Assembly: GCA_028703445.1 (NCBI GenBank)
Contig: JAQVMW010000001.1
Span: forward strand, 124,001-188,000
Origin: Candidatus Peribacteraceae bacterium
GTDB taxonomy: Bacteria; Patescibacteriota; Gracilibacteria; Peribacterales; Peribacteraceae
Direction: 5' to 3'
Length of the DNA stretch: 64,000 nt
In this document: positions 7,361 through 41,469 of the stretch, one piece after another
Position numbering within the stretch: the stretch's first letter is position 1
How the letters are laid out: each line of letters starts with the position of its first letter
The notes under the pieces: model-generated
Database searches by the model: none
Told to the model about the DNA's origin: nothing
What the model saw: the letters and a program-made list of their open reading frames with translations, nothing else
Translations under genes and position numbers: made by a program

Positions 7361-7512
7361 GTCGCACCTACCGTATCGCCGTCCCGCGTAAGGATCTCTC
7401 GGCCGCGACCCAGTGGATGCTCAGAAGCTTCCCCATCGAAGAGTTGCGCATGGAAGAAGTGGATCTGACGGAGGTGATCGAAAAAGCGTTTGCAATGGAG
7501 TCGCGAGCGTAG
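7361..7512 (+). pseudogene. 3' fragment of an ABC-transporter ATPase gene
   Basis: In frame, this encodes the last 49 or so residues of the ATPase at 17290-18297 (from RTYRIAVPRKDL to MESRA, then TAG), with no start or ATPase motifs. It marks the left edge of a duplicated unit. Part of it is base-identical to the full gene. A middle part differs, but only by synonymous changes, for example CTC AGA AGC against CTT CGC TCT for Leu-Arg-Ser. The fragment must therefore descend from a gene that was under selection until recently. Confidence 0.85.
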
Positions 7513-7513
7513 G

Positions 7514-7654
7514 CATGAGAGACAAACCTAACGGTTTTTCTCTCACCCCTCGACTACCCGTCCGTACCGGACAACGTCCGGGCGGGCGCTCGGGGTGACA
7601 AGTTGATAATGTTTCTTTGACGAATTGGGGTGACCCTGAGCTTGTCGAACGGGT
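7514..7654 (+). mobile_element. 141-bp MITE-like insertion with target duplication
   Basis: Compared with the sister copy at 18298, an extra block sits directly after the stop codon of the ATPase fragment. CATGAG occurs on both sides (7514-7519 and 7655-7660) and looks like a 6-bp target-site duplication. Inside are nested palindromes, TCACCCC...GGGGTGA around CCGGAC-AAC-GTCCGG, and a CCTGAGCTTGTCGAA motif common in small bacterial repeats. No protein is encoded. Confidence 0.6.
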
Positions 7655-7811
7655 CATGAGCTCTCTTTTCCCTCAACGGATGCGCTCCAGACAAGCAAAG
7701 CTTGCCTTCGCGCGATTATTTTATTGCTACGGCACAGGGGATTTATTGTTCTGTTGTGATTTGTTTGTTGTAGATGTTTTCCTTTCTCCCGGAGGGCAGG
7801 CGATGTGGGCA

Positions 7812-7835
7812 GGGAGAGGGGCCGGGGGTGAGGCA
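7812..7835 (+). repeat. half copy of the GTGAGGCA-ended repeat
   Basis: GGGAGAGGGG...GGGGGTGAGGCA matches the right terminus of the elements at 18441-18985 and 41314-41469. The left terminus is absent here, so this is a solo or decayed end. The rest of 7661-7850 is non-coding and, up to about 7740, matches 18301-18385. Confidence 0.55.
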
Positions 7836-7849
7836 GAGAAGAAAGCCCC

Positions 7850-7964
7850 CGTTCCACCACCCGATAGAACGCCTTTGACCGCCAGTTAATGCCCATAAAC
7901 CACACTCTCCGGAACAATCGGTCACGGGAGGTATTCCGGTCGCGTCCTTCTTCCTCTGCAATGG
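7850..7964 (+). promoter_or_regulatory. conserved 115-nt leader of the first LamG gene
   Basis: Aligns without gaps to 19001-19115 with only 4 differences, although the coding regions that follow are far more diverged. It begins with the 20-bp GTTC-N12-GAAC palindrome (7851-7870). It then has TTTGACC and an inverted repeat, CCGGAA...TTCCGG (about 7909-7939). It ends shortly before a pyrimidine-rich tract and the ATG at 7989. Probably a promoter/5'UTR control region. The mechanism is unknown. Confidence 0.55.
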
Positions 7965-7988
7965 GGGTGCATCTTCCCCTCCCCTTTC

Positions 7989-10900
7989 ATGTCTATCAAA
8001 TCCCCTTCTCTTCAAGAAAAGCATCTCTTCATCGAGCGTCTCGAATCGAGGCAGATGCTGTCGGGCACCGATTTGACGTCCGCGCAGCAGATCATTGCAA
8101 CAGAGATCGACGCGGTGTTGCGCGCCGAGCCCATTACGCTTTTGAGCGGAACCAAGGAATTCAACGGCTCGCAGGTGGAGTGCATAGCCGACAGCCCCGT
8201 CTTCACGGATGGATCCTTCACGATCGCAGTAGATGTGCGGCCGGCCGTGCAGCAGTTCCAGACGTTCGTTTCGAAGTACAACTCCAGTGACAATGCGGAC
8301 CAGAGCTTTTATCTCGGCATGGGCGCAAATGGACGGCTCCAGTTCTCCGTATACGGAAATGGAGGAAACTACCGGGTGCTCTATACCGATGCGGCGCCTC
8401 TGACCATAGGTGTGTGGCAGAAGGTGGTGGCGAGTTTTGACATCGAGAGCCAGAAGATGTCCATCGCGGTGGATGGAAAGGAGGTGCCGGCAACGGTGGA
8501 CGCTATCTCGAAGGAGGTCAAACCGATCCATGACGGCTTGAGCCCGGTACGACTGGGGGCTTCGGTCTTCGGAAGCGGAGTCATCACGAATCACCTCAAA
8601 GGAGATCTTCGAAACGTGAAGATATTTCCGGTGGAACGGTTCGGAATTCCGCAGCAGACGGCAGCAACGGATGCAGCCATCGCGGAGATTGCGGAGGAGG
8701 ACAAACCCGCGGAGCCGACGGAAGCCGGACAACAGATTACCGCTGCGGCGATCGACGCGGTGTTGCGCGCCGAGCCCATTACGCTTTTGAGTGGAGAGAA
8801 AGAATTCAACGGATCAACCGTGGAATGCATCGCCGACAGTCCCGTCTTCACGGATGGCTCCTTTATGATCGAGGCCTCGGTGCGGTTGAACGCCATCAAG
8901 GGCCAAACGATCGTTTCGAAGTACAATTCGCAGAGCGAGCCGGGCGCCAGTTTCTACCTCGGCATGTACGGGGACGGGCGGCTGGAATTTGTGGTGTATG
9001 GGGCCCCCGGAACGAAGAGCCGCATGATTCTGGAAACGGATAGCGCGCCTCTGACCGTGGGGCAGTGGCACAAGATACAGGCACGCTTCGACATCCAAAA
9101 ACAAACGATGTCTATTACAGCGGATGGGAAAGAGGTTCCGGCGACGATCGTGTCCGGGTTTGATCCCGTGCCCTCCCTGTATGACAGTACGAGTCCCGTG
9201 CGAGTAGGAGCTTCCGTCTTCGGCGGCGGGCTGCAGGATTTTCTGAATGCCCGAGTGAAGGATGTCACCTTCTATCCCGGGGAATTTGACGCGAAACAGG
9301 AAGCGGCAGCTGTGGATGCAGCGGTTACGGAGCAGGAGGCCGTCCTGCCATTGACGGAGGCGGAAACGCAGGCTGTAACTGGGGAGCAGCAACTCATTGC
9401 GACTTCCATTGATGCGGTGCTCCGCGCGGAGCGCATTCCCCTTCTTTCCGGTGCAAAAACATTCAATGGATCCACTGTGGAGAGTACACCCGACAGTTCC
9501 GTTTTCACCGACGGTTCCTTCGCCATCGAAACTGCGGTCTGTCCAGATAGCCTCCGGGAACAGGCCATCGTCTCGAAATACAACACCCAGCAGGCCAATC
9601 CCGACCAGGGATTCCTGCTCTCCATACTCAACGGCGGATGCCTGCAGCTCATCGTGTACCAGGAGGGCGGCGGATACCGCATCGCAGAGACGGATGGCGC
9701 CGTGATGGAAGCGGGAGTGTCGAAACGCATCGTGGCGGGGTTCGACATCGAGAATCAGCAGATGACATTCGAAATCGACGGAGTGGTTGTGCCATCGACG
9801 GTGGTGGAAGGATCGAAAGACATTACGAAGATCCGCGATGGAACCAGCCCGGTGTGGGTGGGCGCCGTCACCTACGGCAGTGGAAAGGCAAATCCTCTCT
9901 CCGGAACGGTGGACTATGCGTACTTCTATCCCATAGCGCCGCATGCTGAGCAGACGGCGGTGGCGGACGCAGCGGTTACGGAGGAGGAAGCCGTCCTGCC
10001 ATTGACGGAGGCGGAGGCGAATGCGCTGACGACGGTCGCAGACACGACAGCCCCCGCGACCACCGAAACAGGCACGGAAAAGGAACTCACCGCGGAGATG
10101 GTGCAGACGATCCTGACCGATCTCCTCTCGGCGCAGGACGCGGCCGAAGCGCCGCAAACCCTCACCGACACGCCGGACTTAAGTGGAGCATCCCTGCAGA
10201 ATGGTGTGTTGCAGATTTCCCTGCCCGGCCTGGGAGGGACAGCATCCATGATGAGTTGGCAGGGCGATGCGAAAGGCAAAGAAGTGAAAACGATCACGGG
10301 GGAGGAGGGACGACAGGCGGCGATTGCCGCAGGGATCATCGTGGAAAAACAAGTGGTCGACACGACACTTTCCTTGGCGGATGTCTTGGATTTGCCGGAA
10401 GGCATTCAACGCGATCAGAACGGAGCAGTGCAACACACCATCGTGAAAGAGACGGAGGAACTCGGAAAAGTGAGCATCTGCGTCGATGACGGAAGGAAGT
10501 ATATCTACCTCGCCAATCGCAACGGCGTCCTTGGCGGTGAGGGGGCGTATCCCTTCGGGCAGGCGGATTTCCCCATCGAATTCCTGGATGGCCCACGGTA
10601 TGTGCGATGGGTTGATCTTGAGCGCCTGTCCGGCATAACCAATGCAAAAGTGTACGTATGGGACGCGCAGGGAGCGGTGCGCACGCTGTGGGCCAGTGAA
10701 AGCGGACATCTTGAAATCAATGGCACGGTCAAGATGCTTGGGATATACCCCGAGCAGCACGCTTCGGCCTGGGTCATTCGGGCAGTGAATACCGATCCCA
10801 TCGTCCCGCCGCCCGCCTTCGAGGAAACCTGGATGCAGGCAAGCGGAGAACTGGTCGGCATCGATCTGAGCGATACGGAACAGGCGGCGCAGTCCGTTGA

Positions 10901-17289: not shown

Positions 17290-18297
17290 ATGGCCGACGC
17301 GATCACCGTTAAGAACCTCAAGCGCACCTTCCGGCACTACGAAAAGAAGCCCGGCCTCCTGCCGACCCTGAAAAGCGTCATCTGGCGCGAGTGGAGTGAC
17401 AAAAATGCCGTAGACGGGGTGAGTTTTTCGATCCCCGAAGGGAGCTTCGTGGGATTTTTGGGACCCAACGGCGCCGGCAAAACGACGACCCTCAAGATGC
17501 TCTCGGGCATCCTCACGCCCACCTCCGGTTCGTGCAAAGTGCTCGGATTTACTCCCTCCGAGCGCAAGCGGGCATTCAAAAAGCAGATCGGCTTCGTGAT
17601 GGGGCAGAAATCACAACTCATCTGGGATCTGCCGCCCACCGACACCTTCGTGCTCCACCGCGACCTGTACGAAATCCCGCGCAATCAGTGGAATGAGACG
17701 CTGGATACGCTCACGAAGCTTCTGAGGGTGGAGCACGTGCTCTCGACCCCCGTGCGTCAGCTCTCGATGGGCGAACGTATGAAGTGCGAACTCATTGCTT
17801 CGCTCCTTCATAAGCCCAAGGTTCTCTTCTTGGACGAACCCACGATCGGCCTCGACGTGATCTCGCAGGTGCACCTGTGGGAATTCCTCGGCACCTATCA
17901 GGCCAAGGAGAAGATGACGGTGCTCCTGACCTCCCACTACGTGCATGACATCGCGAACCTGTGCGAGAACGTCATCATCCTCAATAAGGGCAGAAAGGTG
18001 TACGACGGCTCTTTCGAGTCCCTCGTCAACCGTCTGGAGCCGGAGCGCTGCGGCATCATTCGTTTCCACAAAGATCAGCTCAAAAAAGAACAGACGGAGA
18101 AAATTGCGGAAATGGTGAAGAACCGGCACTTGGAGCAGATCGATCCTCGCACCTACCGTATCGCCGTCCCGCGTAAGGATCTCTCGGCCGCGACCCAGTG
18201 GATGCTTCGCTCTTTCCCGATCGAAGAACTCCGGATGGAGGAAGTGGATCTGACGGAAGTAATCGAAAAGGCGTTTGCAATGGAGTCGCGAGCGTAG
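17290..18297 (+). CDS. ABC transporter ATPase (COG4586-like)
   Basis: 335 aa, nucleotide-binding subunit. Walker A GPNGAGKTT, signature LSMGERMKCELIASLL, Walker B VLFLDEPTIGLD and switch His in LTSHYVHD are intact. The C-terminal 100 residues form the regulatory extension of this family. Its ATG is 5 bases after the second permease, so the three genes form one operon. The last 150 bases occur a second time at 7361-7512, the left boundary of a segmental duplication. Confidence 0.92.
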   Translation: MADAITVKNLKRTFRHYEKKPGLLPTLKSVIWREWSDKNAVDGVSFSIPEGSFVGFLGPNGAGKTTTLKMLSGILTPTSGSCKVLGFTPSERKRAFKKQIGFVMGQKSQLIWDLPPTDTFVLHRDLYEIPRNQWNETLDTLTKLLRVEHVLSTPVRQLSMGERMKCELIASLLHKPKVLFLDEPTIGLDVISQVHLWEFLGTYQAKEKMTVLLTSHYVHDIANLCENVIILNKGRKVYDGSFESLVNRLEPERCGIIRFHKDQLKKEQTEKIAEMVKNRHLEQIDPRTYRIAVPRKDLSAATQWMLRSFPIEELRMEEVDLTEVIEKAFAMESRA

Positions 18298-18440
18298 GCG
18301 TGAGCTCTCTTTTCCCTCAACGGATGCGCTCCAGACAAGCAAAGCTTGCCTTCGCGCGATTATTTTATTGCTACGGCACAGGGGCTATTTGTTTGTGTTT
18401 TTTTAATTTATGGAACGAGGTCTTGTTTTGTGCGTTGTTT

Positions 18441-18985
18441 TGCCTCACCCCCAACCCCTCTCCGATCCCGCCGCATACCCGCCCCGGAGAGGGGAGAGTT
18501 GATCGTTGCTTCAGACGGATGACACGAGTAGGGTCGCTTCCTTTTTATGATTCAGGAGGAATCCAAACGGCAGCGCTACAGAAGAAAGGTCATCTATGCC
18601 CGCAAGCTGCGGCAACGCATGACAAAACCGGAAATGATCCTCTGGAAGGCTCTTCGGGACAGGAAGTGTGTTGGCATTAAATTCCGGAGACAAGTGCCGA
18701 TGGGATGGTTTGTTGTGGATTTTCTTTGCAGGGAATACCGCCTCATCATCGAAATCGACGGAAAGATCCACGAAAAAACACTGGAATATGACCGTGCAAG
18801 AGACACCGAAATCCGCCTGCACAACTATCGTGTTCTCCGATTCAGTAATATCCAGATTCTAAAGAACTTGGAAGACGTTCTCCGCACTATTACAGCAGCA
18901 ACACAACATTCTTCACTCCAATCACATTCCCCCTCTCCCGTTGGCGAACGGGAAGGTATGGGAGAGGGGGTCAGGAGGTGAGGCA
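18441..18985 (+). mobile_element. inverted-repeat element carrying a DUF559 nuclease gene
   Basis: About 25-bp terminal inverted repeats: TGCCTCACCCCC...CCTCTCC at 18441-18463, and its complement GGAGAGGGGG...GGTGAGGCA at 18961-18985. They enclose a DUF559 gene whose stop codon lies inside the right end. The sister locus at 7.7-7.85 kb lacks the gene and keeps only a right-end-like half. The 156-bp copy at 41314-41469 has the same ends and no gene. Confidence 0.6.
18547..18981 (+). CDS. DUF559-family (Vsr-like) endonuclease
   Basis: 144 aa. Core motifs of the DUF559 domain of the PD-(D/E)XK/Vsr superfamily are visible: ARKLRQRMTKPEMILWKALR, GIKFRRQVPMGWFVVDFLC, LIIEIDGKIH, DRARDTEIRLHNYRVLRF. 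The Asp in VVDF and the Glu/Asp of EIDG are the likely metal ligands. The last 20 residues (SPSPVGEREGMGEGVRR) are the translation of the flanking repeat, so the functional protein is about 122 residues. Such proteins are linked to mobile DNA, but their function is not settled. Confidence 0.8.
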   Translation: MIQEESKRQRYRRKVIYARKLRQRMTKPEMILWKALRDRKCVGIKFRRQVPMGWFVVDFLCREYRLIIEIDGKIHEKTLEYDRARDTEIRLHNYRVLRFSNIQILKNLEDVLRTITAATQHSSLQSHSPSPVGEREGMGEGVRR

Positions 18986-19000
18986 AAGAAAAAGACAGGC

Positions 19001-19115
19001 CGTTCCACCACCCGGCAGAACGCCTTTGACCGCCAGTTAATGCCCACAAACCACACTCTCCGGAACAATCGGTCACGGGAGGTATTCCGGTCGCGTCCTT
19101 CTTCCTCTGAAATGG
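19001..19115 (+). promoter_or_regulatory. conserved 115-nt leader of the second LamG gene
   Basis: Second copy of the leader at 7850-7964 (4 differences, no gaps), beginning with GTTC-N12-GAAC at 19002-19021. The 54 bases between it and the ATG at 19170 differ from the first copy and form a pyrimidine-rich CCTTACC-type tract. Confidence 0.55.
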
Positions 19116-19169
19116 AAACACACATCTCATCCCTCCCTTCCTTACCTTACCTCCCTTACCCCCTCCCCC

Positions 19170-22100
19170 ATGTCCCTCAAATCCCCTTCTCTTCAAGAAA
19201 AGCATCTCTCCATTGAGCGCCTCGAATCGCGGCAGATGCTGTCGGGCACCGATTTGACGTCCGTGCAGCAGATCATTGCAACGGAGATCGATGCAGTGTT
19301 GCGCGCCGAGCCCGTGGAACTTCTGAGCGGATCTAAAGAATTCAACGGATCGACCGTGGAATGCATCGCCGACAGCCCCGTCTTCACGGATGGATCCTTC
19401 ACGATCGAAGCATCGGTGCGGCCGAATGCCATCCGGGCACAGGCACTCGTTTCGAAATATAACTCGCAGAGCGAACCGGGCCAGAGCTTCATTCTCACGA
19501 TGCTCGCGGACGGCCGGCTTCGGTTCTGCGTTTACGGGAATCCCGCGGCCAATGAGATGCAGATGCTGGAGACCAATGGGGTACCGTTGAAGGCGGGGGT
19601 GTGGCAGAAGGTGCAAGCGAGCTTCGACATCCAGAGTCAGAAGATGTCCATCGTCGTGGACGGCACGGAGGTTCCGGCGACGATGGCGGAGGGATCGCAG
19701 GCAGTGACGGCTATCTACAACAGCGTAAGCCCTGTGCGGATGGGCGGGGTGGTCTTCGGGGGCGGGCTCACCTGGATCTTCGGGGGAGAGATGCAGGACG
19801 CACGGTTCTATCCGGTGGCATCGCGCGGAATCCCGAAGGAAGCGCAGACGAGCCCTGCGGCGACTGATGCGGTGATTATAGAGGAGGAGGTCGTCCTGCC
19901 ATTGACGGAGGCGGAGGCAAATGCGCAGACGGCGCAGGAGCAGCAGCTCACCGCAGCGTCAATCGACGCCGTCCTGCGCGCCGAGCCCATTACGCTTTTG
20001 AGTGGAGAGAAAGAATTCAACGGATCAACCGTGGAATGCATCGCCGACAGCCCTGTCTTCACGGATGGGTCGTTCACAATACAGTTCTCCGTTCGGCCAA
20101 ATGTGATCAAGCCACAGGCACTTCTATCGAAATACAACTCACAGAGTGAACCTGGCCAGAGCATATATGTCGGTATGTATGCAAACGGGTGTCTGGAGTT
20201 CGTGGTCTACGGAGATCCCTCCGCCAAGGAAATGCAGATGCTGGAGACCAATGAAGCACCGTTGAAAGTGGGAGAATGGCATGACGTGCAAGTAAGTTTT
20301 GATATCAAAACCCAAAAAATGTCTATTGTAGTGGATGGCAAAGAAGTTCCATCAACAAAGGTTGAGGGTACGCCAAATGTAACGGCGATCTATGACAGCA
20401 AAAGTCCGATATGGTTGGGCGGCGTGACTTTCGGAAACGGACCCACCTATTTCTTGGATGGAGCACTGGGGAACACGACATTCTACGCCGTGGCATCGTA
20501 CGGGATCCCACAGCAAACGGTGGTGGTGGACGCGGAGGAGACACCAGAAGCAGAAATCCCTGCCACGGTCGCGATTCCCGCGCAAGAAGAGGAGGAGAGT
20601 GCGGAGAAGGCGTCCCCGGAACAAGAGCAACCCCTTTCGCTCACGGAGCGCCAGCTCCAGCAGTACGAAACGCGCATGGCCGCTGCCAGCGCACGCTTGG
20701 CCGTATGCGAAGCCGCACTCAAGACGGCGCAGGAGAAAGTATCCGCACTGCAGGAGGCGGCTTCCATCACCGCAAAAACAGAAACACTAACTCTCGCACA
20801 GGACAGCGAAGCACAAGCGCTCGCAGACTGGCAGATCGCGCGCCGCGAGACCATCGCGTACGCCGGCATCACCGCAATCGAACCCAAGGTGGAACAACTG
20901 CGGAACGGAGATCTCAAGGTCGGCTTCGTCGTGCATTACCGCTCGTCTGATACAGACTCCTGCCTGGAAGTATTGCGCGATGGCGTGCGCGTGAGCGAGT
21001 TCTCTGCGCAGCATCCCGCCGGGCAGCCGGACGGCCAATTCTGGTACAACACAGGGGATGATATCTGGCATGGCGAACTGGAATTCCGATACTCGAGCGG
21101 CAACGGGAATTCCTTAAAACAGGTGGACAGCGCCGAAGCGAGCTACAATACCCGCGAATCCCCCCAGAACGCGGCCCGCGTGCGAACCACGTTCCGTGAA
21201 GTGGAATCTCACGACACCGGCCGTTTGGTGGATACTCCTCTCTCCTACGATCTCAAGCTCATGAGCACCAATGGCCCCAACGCCGTGCTCCACTTCACCT
21301 CGCCGGATGATGAAAGCTTGATTACCTCCAGCACCGGAGGAATTTACGGACAGAATTCCTATTCCCATTCGGGCGGCACCTCAACGGGCGTGACGCTCAT
21401 TACCCTGAATCCCAACAAACCCGGTCGCTACTTCTACTCCCTCATCGATCATAATGGCACGACCCGTGACACCGTCTGGGTAGAGTGGGACGGCACGACG
21501 CTCACCCTCGTGAATCCGGAAGCTCAATGGACATCGGATGAGGCAACGAACATGCGTACGGCCTCTCTGGATGCCAACAATCCGGATGCGTCCCCTGCAA
21601 CGCGCATCGCAATCAGCTTGAGTGAAGAAGCTGCCGAGACCATGGAGCAGGAACGACTGGAATTGCTCTTGAGCAGACAAATGGGCCTGGCCAGCATCGC
21701 GGTCAGCAGCATGAATCTGGAACTGGGGAGAGTGCAGGCGAAGAATTTTTACGAGCGATCCGGCCTCTTCGTCAATATGGAAACGATGCATGAGTACTTC
21801 TTTACGGCACATCCCGACTGGCGGCCCGAGAATTTTCAGGCGACAGTCATGCGCATGTGGCAGGATGGCGGCTGTAACGGACCCAGCGGCGATACGCGTG
21901 ACTGGCTCAACGGCGTCATTCTGGATGTGATGGGACGCTACGACCGCGATCTGAACGTGTATGCGTCCGCCATGGCCGAGATCATGGAAAAAGGCGTGAA
22001 GACCTGTCTCGCCATCCGGCAGGGGCAACCCGAGAGTCCTCTCCTTTTCGAGCTTGATCAACTCATCACCGCCCGAGGATACTGGGAGGCCGTGGGACGT

Positions 22101-41313: not shown

Positions 41314-41469
41314 TGCCTCACCCCCCTACCCCCTCTCCGCACCGCCCAACGCCAACCAGAGAGGGAGCGTACTCTTTCTGTTTTTGGGTTCTTTCAAAAT
41401 AACAAATGTGTGCCCCCTCTCCATGAAGGAATCGTAGAAGGGATGGAGAGGGGGATAGGGGGTGAGGCA
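41314..41469. mobile_element. 156-bp non-coding inverted-repeat element (MITE-like)
   Basis: Ends TGCCTCACCCCC...CCTCTCC (41314-41338) and GGAGAGGGGG...GGTGAGGCA (41445-41469), about 25 bp each with 2-3 mismatches. An inner palindrome, CCCCCTCTCCAT...ATGGAGAGGGGG, lies in the right half. No coding capacity. Same ends as the DUF559 element at 18441-18985. Confidence 0.7.

Follow-up and report, generated by a model that had tools for sequence, protein, structure and literature searches.

A DUF559 nuclease gene between inverted tagged hairpins: a candidate REPIN/RAYT-like mobile system with a Vsr-like nuclease as its resident enzyme

The DNA analysed here (the window) is a stretch of 64,000 nt from Candidatus Peribacteraceae bacterium (assembly GCA_028703445.1, contig JAQVMW010000001.1, positions 124,001-188,000, forward strand). 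It contains an element whose sole gene encodes a DUF559 protein (PF04480, E 3.8e-34) and a second, shorter element without the gene (Table 1). Each end consists of a tag followed by CCCCTCTCC, a loop and GGAGAGGGG, and the two ends are mutually inverted, as in a REPIN. A first-pass annotation of this DNA had given both elements the same plain 25-bp terminal repeat; the ends are indeed the same, but each is a tag plus a stem-loop. The tag TGCCTCACCCCC opens both elements (18441-18452 and 41314-41325), GGAGGTGAGGCA, with one mismatch, is found at 18974-18985, and GGGGGTGAGGCA is found at 41458-41469 and 7824-7835. The "half copy" that had been placed at 7812 is real and comprises one tag and one hairpin, at about 7786-7835. 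The stop codon (TGA, 18979-18981) is inside the terminal repeat, as the annotation had it: the right tag holds it, and the last residues of the protein are therefore translated from the right hairpin.

Table 1. Tagged hairpins and the elements they delimit within the window (z, folding as single-stranded DNA relative to shuffles).
Feature	Position	Strand	Folding
DUF559-bearing element, 545 bp, bounded by two inverted tagged hairpins	18441..18985	+	
Left end: tag TGCCTCACCCCC 18441-18452; hairpin CCCCTCTCC 18455-18463 / GGAGAGGGG 18486-18494	18441..18494	+	z -2.9
DUF559 (PF04480) Vsr-like nuclease gene (predicted), 144 aa; stop codon within right tag	18547..18981	+	
Right end: hairpin CCCCCTCTCCC 18929-18939 / GGGAGAGGGGG 18960-18970; inverted tag GGAGGTGAGGCA 18974-18985	18929..18985	-	z -2.5
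Gene-less element, 156 bp, same tagged hairpin ends; one of ~16 genome-wide	41314..41469	.	right hairpin z -4.0; left arm mismatched
Solo tagged repeat (one end only), paralogous site to 18.4-kb element	7786..7835	-	weak hairpin, z +1.2

Three of the five hairpins in the window folded better than their shuffles; the exceptions were the 41.3-kb copy's left arm, which was folded with its last bases omitted, and the solo repeat at 7.8 kb. Matches to the 12-mer tag with at most two mismatches number nine in the window versus 5.4 expected, which is not clearly above chance, and no Rfam family matched anywhere in the window at gathering thresholds. The solo repeat and the full DUF559 element occupy paralogous stretches (7500-8200 and 18290-19200, respectively), each with the end of an ABC transporter gene and then a large gene starting ...IERLESRQMLSG. 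In G003, a sister genome, a DUF559 element of a different subfamily (L119) is downstream of what appears to be the same transporter gene.

DUF559 is predicted to be a small Vsr-like nuclease of the PD-(D/E)XK type that would cut DNA. Its PDB matches are 3hrl (an endonuclease-like protein, E 4.1e-30) and 3r3p (a mobile intron protein, E 5.7e-5), the latter presumably the EDxHD homing endonuclease I-Bth0305I. The invariant acidic and histidine residues are kept, the structure model is fairly confident (pLDDT 81), and by sequence DUF559 appears to be kin to EDxHD and Vsr-like nucleases. We know of no strand-transfer activity in DUF559. A Caulobacter DUF559 protein, VsrA, is reported to be responsible in vivo for an SOS response in the absence of a protective methyltransferase (PMC12907096), and DUF559 segments are described as recombination hotspots in Legionella (PMC12308824).

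PF04480 is found in nine places in the host genome, which is Ca. Peribacteraceae-like and 1.37 Mb in size, two of these places being cut by contig ends and probably halves of one gene split by a contig gap. Hairpins of the CCCCTCTCC/GGAGAGGGG type are found at every readable DUF559 flank, and CCTCACCCCC and its complement occur 48 times genome-wide versus 4 for the reversed strings. The tag pair is common to about 16 gene-less elements and three DUF559-bearing elements (510, 524 and 545 bp). The gene-less elements with TGCCTCACCCCC ends are dispersed, most are 139-158 bp long, their two ends can be told apart, and the spacer between them is conserved. Two of them (C6:86475 and C12:75684) have near-identical cores in unrelated flanks, which suggests recent copying. 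No target duplication was seen by eye at the 16 gene-less copies. The autonomous and non-autonomous pair proposed in the first-pass annotation is supported, with one refinement: the gene-less elements resemble REPINs, have a conserved spacer of their own and are no evident deletion derivatives of the gene-bearing one.

The tags, read by eye, vary by DUF559 clade. TGCCTCACCCC or close variants accompany the window gene, the host genes on C16 and C1, and gene L122 of G003; the tags of L119 and L120 are GACCTCACCCC; and in one further clade the tags face the gene. Such clade-specific tags would fit a cognate specificity between enzyme and repeat, again judged by eye.

Empty sites in related genomes, which had been suggested as a check, exist. 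In the sister genome G001, compared over 800 kb of 1.25 Mb, the host's C16 DUF559 element is cleanly absent and ...GTTTTCACAGC directly adjoins TTCAGTAGACC...; at its left junction the filled site contains some 10 nt of filler, and the comparison of empty and filled sites revealed no target duplication. Five gene-less elements (C7:8035, C8:31627, C5:14859, C5:22025 and C19:23119) are missing from orthologous intergenic sites of G001 whose spacers have diverged, and a sixth (C3:46599) is common to both genomes. Within the host family, ribE likewise occurs both with and without a DUF559 insert.

The ribE insert belongs to a set of insertions in conserved genes. In the host, one DUF559 element is in frame between the two lumazine-binding halves of riboflavin synthase; RibE has about 190 aa in most genomes of the family, and in 13 of the genomes examined it is longer and encloses a DUF559 domain. 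Similar in-frame inserts are found in murD, rsmG, yrdC/Sua5, a GT4 glycosyltransferase gene, ribD, tsaB and an F420-ligase-like gene. Their hairpins are translated as linkers, for example SIPRPLPPEEEG and PPSEEGLGVEE. The in-gene inserts form one clade (support 99/93), which includes one DUF559 not labelled in-gene beforehand and in which, by predicted translation, the hairpins become Pro-rich linkers flanking the nuclease domain. The ribE inserts form no clade of their own within it; sister inserts are instead found in ribE and rsmG of G055 (100/99) and in ribE and ribD of G058 (98/84). The ribE and rsmG copies of G055 have an exact common sequence between 12-bp inverted ends, CCCCTCCATCCC and GGGATGGAGGGG, and none beyond them, a pattern that delimits the element and demonstrates a jump between unrelated genes. 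An intein was rejected: the Pfam domains of in-gene inserts are DUF559 or nuclease and host domains only, with no Hint domain. RibE of G056 (L279), in addition to its DUF559 insert, appears to include a gene-less repeat translated in frame within its first domain. Sphingomonadaceae have long open frames with DUF559 (for example G133:C1:5771238, 638 aa; G155:C4:114840, 584 aa; G174:C1:980173, 581 aa), possibly in-gene insertions as well, in another phylum.

We think it likely that these elements constitute a REPIN/RAYT-like mobile system in which the Vsr-like nuclease DUF559 is both the resident enzyme and the mobiliser. An unlikely alternative is that DUF559 is a free-standing homing endonuclease that is copied into fixed targets by homologous repair, the repeats being incidental or its target. 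Homing would suit the sequence kinship to the mobile-intron nuclease, the repeated presence of inserts in ribE, rsmG and other conserved genes and the lack of target duplication. However, the sister copies in G055 are in unrelated genes of one genome with no common flank, intergenic sites differ, and dispersed gene-less copies match the ends of gene-bearing ones.

Mobilisation by DUF559 itself is supported by the empty sites and also by copy number. Among 57 genomes of the host family, hairpin number rises with DUF559 number (rho 0.64, phylogeny ignored), and after subtraction of two hairpins per DUF559 gene the correlation is 0.42 (p 0.001, phylogeny likewise ignored). The hairpin pattern has 799 matches in these genomes versus 23 for its reverse, with medians per genome of 0, 10 and 21 for 0, 1-2 and at least 3 DUF559 genes; had the repeats been equally common without DUF559, as the first-pass annotation had considered, the first and last of these medians would not differ in this way. 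There are exceptions: G019 (84% complete) has 30 hairpins and no DUF559 was found in it, and four genomes with DUF559 (G009, G013, G031 and G054) lack this exact hairpin, possibly because their stems differ. The trend recurs in a second bacterial family, the Sphingomonadaceae (100 genomes, p 3e-9, phylogeny ignored), although the reversed pattern, too, shows a weak increase with DUF559 there (rho 0.31 versus 0.53 for the true pattern). In Sphingomonadaceae the hairpin count never exceeds 3 where DUF559 is absent; its median is 0 in genomes whose DUF559 is divergent throughout and 7 in those with canonical DUF559, where it reaches 112. The boundary separating canonical from divergent (best E 1e-30) was set after the DUF559 scores were known.

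It is improbable, in our judgement, that the repeats owe their movement to RAYT (Y1 tyrosine) transposases, with DUF559 as a passenger between two REPs. The REPIN architecture is a hallmark of RAYTs, and the host genome has five Y1_Tnp matches, some of them RAYT-like. However, Y1 number does not track hairpin number (rho 0.19, and -0.21 as a partial correlation controlling for DUF559), ten DUF559-bearing genomes in which no Y1 was found contain 3-59 hairpins, and the flanks of the host's RAYT-like genes show other palindromes. The RAYT-like genes at C11:60010, C16:26621 and C3:3958 of the host (G000) are each flanked by their own, different palindromes; two repeat systems, one of the DUF559 type and one RAYT-like, coexist in this one small genome. 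We give still less credence to the idea that DUF559 restrains the repeats by cutting extruded hairpins and is kept in repeat-rich genomes, not spreading them. Restraint would yield the same copy-number correlation, and a hydrolytic nuclease need not transpose, but it leaves unexplained the clade-specific tags, the place of the gene within tagged ends and its movement with them.

The association of gene and repeats extends across phyla. For each locus we compared its 250-bp flanks with one another and took the highest-scoring inverted match (strong, score at least 14), with the same loci shifted as controls. The DUF559 loci named in one genome scan number 80, and the flank percentage refers to 77 multi-phylum loci: matching repeats, which the first-pass annotation had proposed to look for around other DUF559 loci, are strong at 74% of these 77 and at 0.6% of controls (median score 18 versus 8). 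Strong flank repeats were found at 90% of 20 Sphingomonadaceae loci (controls for these and the multi-phylum loci, 0-0.6%), 55% of host-family loci and 54% of in-gene inserts, and are thus lacking at a quarter of multi-phylum loci and nearly half of host-family loci. A narrower flank procedure gave 11/19 and 11/21 for DUF559 versus 0/30 for HNH and 2/24 for GIY-YIG genes. One exact hairpin pattern is present in 5-257 copies in each of sixteen named genomes from several groups, although in one of them, G069, reversed-control matches outnumber true ones.

Several individual loci deserve description. L170 (G015:C13:33190-34343) is a tandem array, hairpin-DUF559-hairpin-DUF559-hairpin, whose units recur every 565 bp and whose genes score equally. 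Records of DUF559 on plasmids (39) and on phages (3) are few. On a plasmid of Sinorhizobium sp. K101 (L309), the gene is between two complete gene-less REPIN-like elements, the ends of which are dispersed on Sinorhizobium plasmids; Azospirillum plasmids all carry the element, and hence there is no empty site among them. In E. coli (L311 and L313; fabI-ycjD-sapF), the DUF559 gene ycjD (b1289) is followed by CCCTCACCCC-type repeats, in one strain by CCCTCACCCCAACCCTCTCCC repeats, which we take to be the known boxC family. This locus is strain-variable; of 5426 genomes, 3361 match the ycjD query region over its full extent. It was rejected as an empty site: two strains without ycjD have efflux genes after sapF, and the site is therefore swapped and not empty.

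That the hairpins are ordinary transcription terminators or regulators is hardly credible and was rejected: G+C-rich stem-loops do lie on both sides of a small gene, but one tag is common to both ends and to mobile, dispersed gene-less copies, presence varies at orthologous sites, hairpins are translated inside other genes, and HNH and GIY-YIG genes mostly lack them.

Comparison of genomes thus documents the association of gene and repeats across phyla, dispersal along with DUF559 copy number, clean empty sites and jumps between unrelated genes of one genome, with exact ends and no obvious target duplication. The catalytic part of the DUF559 system, including the role of mobilising enzyme for which the first-pass annotation had named DUF559 as a candidate, we infer, and we hold its detailed chemistry with less confidence than the role itself. 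DUF559 would recognise the tagged hairpin, perhaps extruded or single-stranded, and would nick or cut at its foot; host repair, which we invoke because no strand-transfer step is known for a hydrolytic nuclease, might then copy the element or insert it at a new break. Gene-less copies, which retain both tagged hairpins, would probably be mobilised in trans, and insertions in essential genes would persist when in frame. We see about an even chance that this is a class of transposable elements in many phyla, in which a lone single-domain Vsr-like hydrolytic nuclease acts on tagged hairpins and host repair does the joining, with one branch specialised for in-frame insertion in essential genes, where the ends serve as linkers and the host protein includes the nuclease as one of its domains.

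The mobilisers of many small palindromic repeat families are not known, the CGTC REPs being an example, according to PMC3733652. A pairing of DUF559, widespread and labelled "unknown function", with its own cognate palindromes would give it a role, would explain repeats in Alphaproteobacteria, Chloroflexi, Planctomycetes and Patescibacteria, and would add a second, RAYT-independent REP-type system. The in-frame inserts in ribE, murD, rsmG and others are a case of a mobile element entering conserved genes with no evident splicing. In the part of the open literature that we covered, we found no report linking DUF559 to palindromic repeats.

Several known systems resemble this one. Insertion sequences and MITEs also have autonomous and non-autonomous forms with common ends; here, in contrast, there is no DDE transposase, no target duplication was seen, and the gene-less form is no evident deletion derivative. 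Rickettsia palindromic elements (reviewed in PMC10969869) are palindromic elements of about 150 bp in frame inside protein genes, but they have no known resident enzyme gene, and their sequences and hosts differ from those of DUF559 elements. EDxHD homing endonucleases (I-Bth0305I; PMC3943268) have a nuclease domain related by sequence and have spread into conserved genes; unlike them, the DUF559 gene is bounded by inverted tagged hairpins, is accompanied by gene-less derivatives and moves between non-homologous sites, and we found no intron or intein around it. The closest in layout are REP/REPIN-RAYT systems (TnpA-REP, "REPtrons", "TIRtrons"; PMC3116915, PMC3733652), in which the palindromes likewise carry tags and form inverted pairs, copies without the gene are dispersed, an enzyme gene lies between two copies, each enzyme clade has its own subfamily tag, and target duplication is not obvious. 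In those systems the tag beside the stem is GTAG (or CGTC), whereas here it is CCTCACCCC-like, and some DUF559 copies, unlike REP/RAYT, are in frame in essential genes. Above all, the enzyme of REP/RAYT is an HUH Y1 tyrosine transposase, and DUF559 is an unrelated, putatively PD-(D/E)XK/Vsr-like nuclease. The DUF559 system would thus work like REPIN/RAYT but differs in the enzyme that defines it, and we therefore regard it as a variant and not as a member of REP/RAYT.
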